From: Nitrososphaerales archaeon
Lineage (GTDB): Archaea; Thermoproteota; Nitrososphaeria; Nitrososphaerales; Gagatemarchaeaceae
DNA length: 64,000 nt
NCBI GenBank assembly: GCA_032906765.1
Contig: JAJTZB010000001.1
Location: forward strand, 186,001 to 250,000
Reading direction: 5' to 3'
The notes under the pieces were generated by a model. That model did no database searches and had not been told where the DNA came from. It saw nothing but the letters and a program-made list of their open reading frames with translations. Below, piece by piece: positions 58,628 to 60,991 of this stretch; position 1 is the first letter of the stretch; every line of letters begins with the position of its first letter. Made by a program: the position numbers and the translations under genes.

Positions 58628-58652
58628 AGTGCGAAGGCGCGGTTGCAAGAAA

Positions 58653-58964
58653 ATGCCCCAGTATGCCAGGATAAAGTTGACGAGCGCAAACCTCGAAGAA
58701 CTTGAGAAGGTGGCCAAGGACATCAAGGATATCGCTGACAAGACTGGAGTCAAGGTCAAGGGACCCCAGCCGCTCCCGACAAAGAAGCTCAAGATCACGA
58801 CGCGCAAGGCTCCGACGGGCGAGGGGAGCCACACATTCGACCACTGGCAGCTGCGGATTCACAGGAGGATACTCGACGTCCAGCCGGACGACAGGACGAT
58901 GAGGGCGATAACGAAGCTCAGGATCCCAGAGGACGTTAAGGTCGAGCTCATCCTTACTGCGTAG
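58653..58964 (+). CDS. rps10: Ribosomal protein uS10 (archaeal S10p)
   Basis: A 103-residue small-subunit protein: ARIKLTSANLEELEKVAKDI, KGPQPLPTKKLKITTRKAP, GSHTFDHWQLRIHRRILDV. ATG 58653 gives the usual archaeal length. It stands alone; in many archaea this gene follows translation factor EF-1A, which is not present here. It overlaps the convergent intein-bearing epimerase gene by 11 bases. Confidence 0.96.
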   Translation: MPQYARIKLTSANLEELEKVAKDIKDIADKTGVKVKGPQPLPTKKLKITTRKAPTGEGSHTFDHWQLRIHRRILDVQPDDRTMRAITKLRIPEDVKVELILTA

Positions 58965-60966
58965 GCTGGTTCTTCACCCAAGCGATTGTACGCCGCAACC
59001 CCTCCTCCAGCGTCAGCTCGTACCTGTAGCCGAGGAGCCTCCTTATCTTGGCGGTCGAGGGATAGCTCACCTGCGGTTCTCGCTCGAGTTCGCTCCTCGG
59101 GGGGGCCAAGTCTACTCTTGACTTCGACCCTGTCAGCCGCTTCACAGTTTGTGCAAGCTGCCTTATCGTTACTGCTTTCTCTCCTCCGAAGTTGAATGCT
59201 TCCCCGACAGCCCTCTCGTTAGTCAGCAGAGCGAGGGTCAATCTGGCATAGTTGACCGCATGTGAGGGCGCCGTTGTGTCCCTTCCCCTGTTGAAGAGGG
59301 TCAGCGGCTGGTCGGCGAGGCAGGCTCTGATGAACCTGATGGTCGCCCTGCTGGGCTGGTCGTACTCCCCGAAGAGAAGCCAGCTGCGTGTAATCGACAC
59401 TGGTAGCTGCTTGCTCCTGAAGTAGCTCGTCGCCATGTTCTCGCAGACGACCTTCGAGTAGTCGTAGGGAACTCTTGGGTCGAACGGGGCCCCCTCTGCG
59501 ACCGGGTTCTTCTTGGGCGCTCCGAAGACGTTGGCGGAGGAGTTTCCTGACAAGGTTATTCTTCCGTTTCTCTCGACGAGGAAATTATGGTTCTCGACCT
59601 CAGCGCACCAGACCTCTCCAGAGTAGTAATCAGAGTGGGCGTTGCCGTATTCTGTTCCGAACATGGGCGATCCAGATTTGGCAGAGATTCCAATTCTGTA
59701 GCTCGTCGATTCAATCTTGCGGCCGGCGATGTATGATACGTTATGATCTAGGGAGACTGTGGTGAAGTACCCAAGCTTCGCACAGAGTTCGAGTGTATCT
59801 TCCATGAGACCGGTCGATACAGTAGTTAATTCCTTTCCTCTGGACCCATCCGAATCGAGTAGGCCCTGTAGAAGAGACCTCAACAACACGACCGGAGCAT
59901 CAAGCATCCATCTTGGAATCCTCTTGAAGTGTGCGTTCTTCGAATCTGATCCTGCATCATAGCAATCGTCAAAAATCCTGTAAAGGGGGTCAGAAGTGAA
60001 GTATAGACTCTTGTCGTACCCCGACCATTTGATGGAGTCGCGTGTCAGCACTTCCTCAAGCCGCTGCCTGCACTTGTCTGCCTTCGGGACGTACAAGAAC
60101 ACGCGTGGGTAGAAGTACTTTCTTTTCACCGGCGTGGTTGGCCGCCTCTCAAAACGCCCTGAACCGTCGCGTCTCTGCATTAGCAGGCTCTTGGACAGTC
60201 CACTGGTAACGGTCTGGAACTGTCTTCCGTTTAGGCTTCCATCTCCAATGAACACCCCCGTCAAGTAAAACAGGTCGACAGGGTTGGGAAGGGATTCCGG
60301 AGGAACCGGTGGCGTGATTTGGGTCCCGACCCAACGGCCAGTCACCAGTCTGCAGACTGAACGAGCAGCGACTACATCCGCTCTTTCAAAGGTTGTACGC
60401 CAACCACGCTGCCCCTTAGAACTTGTGGGTGTCTGCACGAGCATGTTGTGGTTGGGTGTCACCATCAAATCTAGCCTTCTTCCCTTGAAGTGAACCATCT
60501 GGCCCTCATACGGATAGATGAACACGCGCTGCACCGGCTTGGGTTCCAAGATTCCCGTCCGCATGTTATGCGTGAAGACGTAGTCACCAGCATTCAGGTC
60601 GGTGTAATGCTTCAGCCCATCAGTCGTGAATGCCCTTGTTCGGGCGTCATGGCATGCGTAGACGAAGCGAGAGACATTCTTCTTGAGTGCGAGTTCGAGC
60701 ATGTTCAGAGTTCCGAAGCAGTTCACCTCGAAGCAGAGCTTCGGGTTCTCGATCGTCTTCTTGATCTCCGTGAGGGCTGCCAGGTGGACGACTGCGTCGA
60801 AGTCGAGGGAGGCGAGCTTCGTGAACACGAAATCCTTGTCGAGAAGGTTCCCGCTGACGGGCCACCCTGCGAGGTCGGTCGGAATCACCTCCACGTGGTT
60901 CTTCGCCAGGAAGTCGACGAGGTTCCTCCCGACCATTCCGGAGGCGCCAGTAACGAGTACCTTCAA
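58954..60966 (-). CDS. Sugar-nucleotide epimerase (extended SDR) interrupted by an intein
   Basis: A 670-residue precursor. The host protein (299 residues after splicing) is an extended SDR: MKVLVTGASGMVGRN at the N-terminus, Tyr501-x3-Lys505 in PYDYSK, and a GalE/RmlB-like C-terminus ending in EEGLRRTIAWVK. The intein is residues 105-475. After removal the join reads FVYA-SSANVFG, the conserved Ser region of SDRs. TTG 60966 gives the canonical start and sits about 31 bases from the box A at 60992; TTG 60981 is an alternative. Likely substrate: UDP- or dTDP-sugar. Confidence 0.93.
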   Translation of the reverse strand: MKVLVTGASGMVGRNLVDFLAKNHVEVIPTDLAGWPVSGNLLDKDFVFTKLASLDFDAVVHLAALTEIKKTIENPKLCFEVNCFGTLNMLELALKKNVSRFVYACHDARTRAFTTDGLKHYTDLNAGDYVFTHNMRTGILEPKPVQRVFIYPYEGQMVHFKGRRLDLMVTPNHNMLVQTPTSSKGQRGWRTTFERADVVAARSVCRLVTGRWVGTQITPPVPPESLPNPVDLFYLTGVFIGDGSLNGRQFQTVTSGLSKSLLMQRRDGSGRFERRPTTPVKRKYFYPRVFLYVPKADKCRQRLEEVLTRDSIKWSGYDKSLYFTSDPLYRIFDDCYDAGSDSKNAHFKRIPRWMLDAPVVLLRSLLQGLLDSDGSRGKELTTVSTGLMEDTLELCAKLGYFTTVSLDHNVSYIAGRKIESTSYRIGISAKSGSPMFGTEYGNAHSDYYSGEVWCAEVENHNFLVERNGRITLSGNSSANVFGAPKKNPVAEGAPFDPRVPYDYSKVVCENMATSYFRSKQLPVSITRSWLLFGEYDQPSRATIRFIRACLADQPLTLFNRGRDTTAPSHAVNYARLTLALLTNERAVGEAFNFGGEKAVTIRQLAQTVKRLTGSKSRVDLAPPRSELEREPQVSYPSTAKIRRLLGYRYELTLEEGLRRTIAWVKNQPTQ
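59542..60654 (-). other. Intein with LAGLIDADG homing endonuclease
   Basis: 371 residues in frame. N-terminus Cys105 in CHDARTRAFTTDGLKHY, then GDYVF; block B LMVTPNHNMLV (TxxH). Two LAGLIDADG-like dodecapeptides: YLTGVFIGDGSLN (234-246) and SLLQGLLDSDGSR (364-376), with acidic Asp242 and Asp373. C-terminal blocks EVWCAEVENHNFLVERNG and ITLSGN-S: Asn475 with +1 Ser476; the penultimate residue is Gly in place of the more common His. All splicing residues needed by the class are present, so it is probably active. Confidence 0.92.
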
Positions 60967-60991
60967 CTTCCTGCTCGCCAACCCTCCGAGT

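Follow-up and report, generated by a model that had tools for sequence, protein, structure and literature searches.

The window, by which we mean the whole stretch of 64,000 nucleotides that was analysed, belongs to a 13-contig assembly, probably a MAG. On its minus strand lies a gene of an extended short-chain dehydrogenase (SDR; 58954-60966, stop codon included), interrupted by what is very probably an intein. The open frame itself runs from 58954 to 60981 and offers two TTG starts, giving a precursor of 670 residues from the TTG at 60966 or of 675 residues from the alternative TTG at 60981. As the initiator methionine of many orthologues (MKVLITG in L032, MKVLVTG in L023) aligns with the TTG at 60966, this second TTG is the better start; counting from the first one shifts all residue numbers by +5. 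At its 3' end, the SDR gene overlaps convergently with a ribosomal protein S10-like gene on the plus strand (58629-58964) by 11 bases (58954-58964), and an S10-like frame is found near the SDR gene in several relatives as well.

The N-extein (60655-60966, minus strand, as are all features below) comprises the Rossmann-fold half with the motif TGASGMVG (TGxxGxxG) and ends with FVYA. It is followed by an insert of 1113 nt (59542-60654), i.e. 371 codons in frame and without a stop, which starts with CHDARTR and finishes with VWCAEVENHNFLVERNGRITLSGN. The C-extein (58957-59541) then opens with SSANVFG and contains YDYSK (YxxxK) and the substrate-binding half. GC content is 52.3% for the insert and higher for the exteins, at 57.8% and 59.5%. 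A first-pass annotation of this DNA had described a 371-residue in-frame insertion beginning at Cys105 and had listed a TxxH block B, two LAGLIDADG-like motifs (Asp242, Asp373) and an SGN end followed by Ser476. With numbering from the TTG at 60966, the position of the insertion was found to be exact and each of these elements was present.

Host enzyme and its intein-free orthologues

The host is certainly an extended SDR. The motifs of both exteins, with SSANVFG adjoining FVYA once the insert is removed, are those of this group, and Pfam Epimerase covers both sides of the insert (E=5e-35). Among solved structures, UDP-glucuronate decarboxylase, dTDP-glucose dehydratase and UDP-glucose epimerase come nearest. 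The nucleotide-sugar reaction could be that of an epimerase, a decarboxylase or a dehydratase. When the unspliced precursor was scanned, it reached no NCBIfam equivalog (GalE equivalog TIGR01179: 79 bits, cut-off 262), so that "epimerase" is a family label only. The earlier designation of the host as a sugar-nucleotide epimerase is therefore right about the extended SDR, while the epimerase reaction is not fixed by family or structure matches.

A contiguous intein-free orthologue was present in 30 of the 36 genomes of the same family (59-76% identity), and an insert at the SDR site was found in none of the 36. In 25 aligned orthologues the motif reads SSANVFG or SSANVYG and is gap-free at the junction, from which it follows that excision of the insert is exact; the expected restoration of FVYA-SSANVFG and of a 299-residue host was thereby borne out. 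The first Ser after the insert (59539-59541), invariant in these 25 orthologues, is the +1 extein residue and the predicted acceptor nucleophile for splicing. The second one (59536-59538), which we take to correspond to Ser124 of E. coli GalE, falls in the same alignment column as the catalytic Ser of GalE and the Thr of RmlB/GMD. This agrees with the proposal that Ser477 is the catalytic one and places the insert one residue ahead of it; without splicing, the enzyme is therefore expected to be dead. There is no second copy of the SDR orthologue in the window's own genome, where other SDRs are about 30% identical or less, and a working enzyme therefore needs splicing. As for the organism, archaeal amoA is present in four families of the same order and absent from the window's family; from this distribution we infer that the family consists of non-ammonia-oxidising Nitrososphaerales.

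Identity of the insert and its predicted splicing

Searched as a single sequence, the insert matched no intein family and yielded only LAGLIDADG_3 at 19.0 bits, below the cut-off of 22.5. Its relatives were more informative. Ten of 12 relatives matched LAGLIDADG_3 at E<=0.01 (best 5e-9), relatives in the alignment matched Intein_splicing, LAGLIDADG_3 and Hom_end, and a profile built from the 12-relative alignment found PI-PkoII, VMA inteins and PI-SceI in the PDB; the search against inteins that the first-pass annotation had suggested thus succeeds with the profile. An AlphaFold model of the insert (pLDDT 87.3, pTM 0.84) gave the same picture, as the top 16 Foldseek matches were all HEN-containing inteins (TliVMA at E=4e-17, PI-SceI and PI-PfuI at about 1e-13). 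Profile, fold, alignment and intein-free orthologues hence agree on a Hint splicing domain with an internal two-motif LAGLIDADG homing endonuclease, as had been claimed.

The residues expected for splicing and DNA cleavage are in place. The class 1 set is complete, consisting of Cys1 (block A nucleophile, 60652-60654), TPNH of block B (intein residues 66-69, 60448-60459), the terminal Asn371 in blocks F and G (59542-59613) and Ser+1. In the endonuclease region, LAGLIDADG motif 1 (LTGVFIGDG, 60238-60264) supplies the catalytic Asp138, motif 2 (LQGLLDSDG, 59845-59871) the catalytic Asp269, and block D (KRIPRW) Lys244 (59923-59925). Cys1, TPNH, Asp138, Lys244, Asp269, Gly370 and Asn371 are all invariant across the 12-relative alignment. 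A class 3 intein was ruled out, since the intein has Cys1 and lacks the Trp-Cys-Thr set (Met and Ser stand at what we take to be block positions B12 and G5).

The penultimate His of block G and the Asp of block F are absent, being replaced by Gly and Cys, respectively. Both substitutions are invariant in the clade, so the penultimate Gly, correctly read earlier, is no quirk of this intein. The His and the Asp are common among inteins, with known exceptions (PMC5874633, PMC7765530), and non-His penultimate residues in particular occur among other inteins (PMC5874633); neither residue is a defining requirement for class 1. Because of the two replacements, splicing could nevertheless be slow or conditional. 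Taken together, we consider the insert to be a normal HEN-bearing class 1 intein located one residue before the catalytic Ser of an extended SDR gene, with a probability of roughly 0.93.

According to the model we propose, the 670-residue precursor would be made first. With its Rossmann half kept 371 residues away from the catalytic Ser and YxxxK, it should have no activity. Cys1 would then take the N-extein through an N-S shift, the N-extein would be transferred to Ser+1, and cyclisation of Asn371 would free the intein, with the exteins joining as FVYA-SSANVFG into the normal 299-residue enzyme. Once released, the intein would cleave alleles that lack it at the conserved motif, and homing would let it spread. 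It may have arrived horizontally, plausibly from a pool of inteins residing at this motif in the surface-sugar genes of viruses. For the window intein, we infer its splicing, its cutting of DNA and its horizontal arrival.

Other explanations of the insert have to be weighed against a normal intein. If the intein were degenerate, i.e. non-splicing or cleaving-only, the fold would be kept while the gene would be a pseudogene or would give a truncated product. The Gly of block G and the Cys of block F could be read in this way, and other SDR paralogues exist in the organism; however, the same Gly and Cys occur throughout the clade, intact hosts included, the frame is unbroken, the remaining splicing residues and the catalytic residues of the two exteins are preserved, and the +1 Ser is kept in all aligned orthologues. 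We regard such degeneration as very improbable. Hardly more credible is a role of splicing as a switch, with the intein being kept because its response to redox state or temperature gates the surface-sugar pathway. Cys1 and the block F Cys could be redox-responsive, conditional splicing of other inteins has been reported (PMC5790916), and the insertion site should make the precursor inactive. Yet 30 of 36 relatives do without the intein and none shares it, which is the pattern of a mobile parasite and not of a kept regulator, and the endonuclease is intact in its catalytic residues. That the insert is an ordinary extra domain and no intein at all is suggested by the weak single-sequence family matches only; the fold match to HEN-containing inteins, the profile match and the complete splicing signature make the chance negligible. 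Homologues carrying the insert as a normal domain, which would have spoken for such a domain, did not appear, as no orthologue has the insert in its active-site motif. A non-intein domain was thus rejected at the level of both sequence and fold.

Related inteins at the SDR catalytic motif and their origin

Scans of viral contigs with intein alignments revealed related inteins at the catalytic motif of extended SDRs on 11 distinct contigs, and when exteins were read, most of the best-scoring viral relatives lay in extended SDRs at this motif. An epimerase-type host is thus less unusual than the first-pass annotation had held. The viral hosts are varied (RmlB-like, GDP-mannose-dehydratase-like and epimerase-like) and only 20-27% identical to the window host, indicating that inheritance together with a single gene does not account for these inteins. 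In the alignment of joined hosts, the junctions are divided between two adjacent columns. Site a, which lies before the residue preceding the catalytic Ser/Thr, is occupied in the window, in the epimerase-like L169 and in the GDP-mannose dehydratase-like L171 (=L172) and L173. Site b, directly before the catalytic Ser/Thr, is occupied in eight cases (L085, L090, L091, L092, L094, L095, L096 (=L097, L098) and L170), and there the catalytic residue is itself the +1 splicing nucleophile. Viral origin is supported by a terminase gene next to L091, by a TubZ-like tubulin on the 406-kb contig of L170, and by RNR and RecA-like genes alongside L085; the other contigs with SDR inteins are taken as viral from their IMG/VR call. 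When used as single queries in viral scans, L085, L173 and L170 each recovered only themselves.

Several further inteins were observed on viral contigs. The SDR gene of L090 holds two of them (315-1454 and 1620-2642), one at the catalytic Ser motif and one at RFFN|CYGTRQ, belonging to different intein clades. An additional SDR site, in the NAD-binding half, is represented by L139 (5001-6146, INFAAKTFVDH|..CGN|SIRDPW). Outside SDRs, L093 (4889-5929) lies in a C-methyltransferase-like protein (GYGA|STKGNT), and on L099 (5001-6104) two inteins interrupt a single glycosyltransferase-like protein.

The corresponding searches of archaeal genomes, phages and plasmids gave no second case among the junctions read and the matches listed. 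In a junction-pattern scan of 400 genomes of the class, the window was the only in-frame SDR junction among 30 matches read, the others being unrelated reading frames, and when the SDR-intein profile was run against 398 genomes of the phylum, none of the loci with a junction that was read proved to be a further SDR-site intein on a chromosome. A scan of genome contigs with the single sequence returned only distant inteins in NrdD-, MCM- and PolB-like hosts. Among the matches listed from GenBank phages and plasmids there was no SDR-site intein; these were inteins of methylase, RNR, thymidylate synthase, polymerase and Nampt. A match in Prevotella phage Lak-A1 (L231, 504164-505285) was rejected as an SDR-site intein, its host not being an SDR; this intein lies in an unannotated protein (KEKFG|C..WCGN|SLRWYSEG).

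Inteins of NadE (NAD synthetase) from nine genomes of the same family are 35-39% identical to the window intein. Eight of them align end to end, while L014 is cut off near the end of its contig. All nine (L006-L014), together with L052 from another family of the order, which falls in the same identity range, are located at LGYF|TKxGDG. Some have lost endonuclease acids (IGGG in L012, RASDG in L010 and L012). In a tree of 38 rows, a single clade (support 100/99) united all 12 SDR-site inteins of sites a and b, the window included, with the NadE inteins, L093 and the viral L168, and stood apart both from three inteins of the window's own genome and from further viral inteins, those of ThyX and NrdD among them. 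Within it, the window intein was grouped with L169, from the same site, and with L168 (support 83-88%). Besides the window intein, the own genome holds at least four more inteins, L002, L003, L004 and L005 (contigs C2, C3, C4 and C2), in hosts which we named by eye as a PurD-like ATP-grasp ligase, a Ski2-like helicase, an EndoQ-like PHP protein and an Mrp/NBP35-like ATPase. All but the Mrp/NBP35-like one were included in the tree, and descent of the window intein from the three tested was rejected, as they fell into a different clade.

Alternatively, ectopic transposition might have brought the window intein from a nadE intein within its own archaeal family, and not from a viral SDR intein. 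The NadE inteins are as close to it as the best viral SDR intein is, and an AU test did not reject window and NadE inteins as one clade (p=0.108). On the other hand, the best tree joins the window with L169 at the very same site, and the block F sequence VE(D)NHNF is common to the window and several SDR inteins, while most NadE inteins have PPxEN. We therefore hold a NadE origin to be rather unlikely, albeit a serious contender. Topology tests likewise did not reject all SDR-site inteins as one clade (p=0.085), and gave p=0.054 for the four site-a inteins as one clade. Since neither the SDR-site clade nor the grouping of window with NadE inteins is rejected, a specialised SDR lineage is no more than possible. 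We put it forward tentatively, at somewhat short of even odds, that a single lineage of homing inteins has become specialised for the catalytic Ser/Thr motif across the extended SDR superfamily, having jumped among unrelated phage dehydratases and epimerases of nucleotide sugars and into an archaeal chromosome, with the catalytic Thr/Ser serving as splicing nucleophile in two thirds of the cases found.

Significance and comparison with known inteins

A metabolic host as such, which the first-pass annotation had considered unusual, is no exception. Although DNA metabolism is their favoured setting, inteins also occupy metabolic enzymes and active sites (PMC7765530, PMC5874633, PMC2814812), and reviews count both among intein habits (PMC7765530, PMC5874633). 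What goes beyond routine is that one catalytic motif of a sugar-enzyme superfamily is repeatedly used as an intein site. Judged by titles and abstracts, the open literature searched contains no report of an intein in a nucleotide-sugar enzyme or short-chain dehydrogenase, and the recurring SDR site appears to be undescribed in the literature searched. The usual hosts of inteins are replication and nucleotide enzymes; in the present case the motif is hit both in phages and in an archaeal chromosome. It thereby becomes possible to test cleanly whether a homing endonuclease is able to track one protein motif through paralogous gene families, and how inteins pass from the glycosylation genes of phages into cells. 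New candidates for split sites in SDR engineering are provided as well.

Of the systems compared, the viral SDR inteins share with the window intein both the catalytic motif and the clade, L169, L171 and L173 even the identical position; they differ in residing in other SDR subfamilies, and in eight of them the insertion point is shifted onwards by one residue, which makes the catalytic Ser/Thr the +1 residue. The NadE inteins (L006-L014, L052) belong to the same supported clade and have the same SGN/CGN ends, whereas their host and site are unrelated and some of their endonuclease motifs have decayed. In TliVMA (7QSS/7QSU), PI-SceI, PI-PfuI and PI-PkoII, Hint is likewise split by a two-motif LAGLIDADG endonuclease, and Cys1, TxxH and the terminal Asn are shared; the window intein is distinguished from them by its host and site, the block F Cys and the penultimate Gly, and its identity to HEN-bearing class 1 inteins in fold alignments amounts to merely 11-19%. 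Finally, the active-site inteins of replication proteins, RNR and V-ATPase are also inserted at the most conserved functional site of their hosts (PMC2814812), but the host interrupted here belongs to nucleotide-sugar metabolism.
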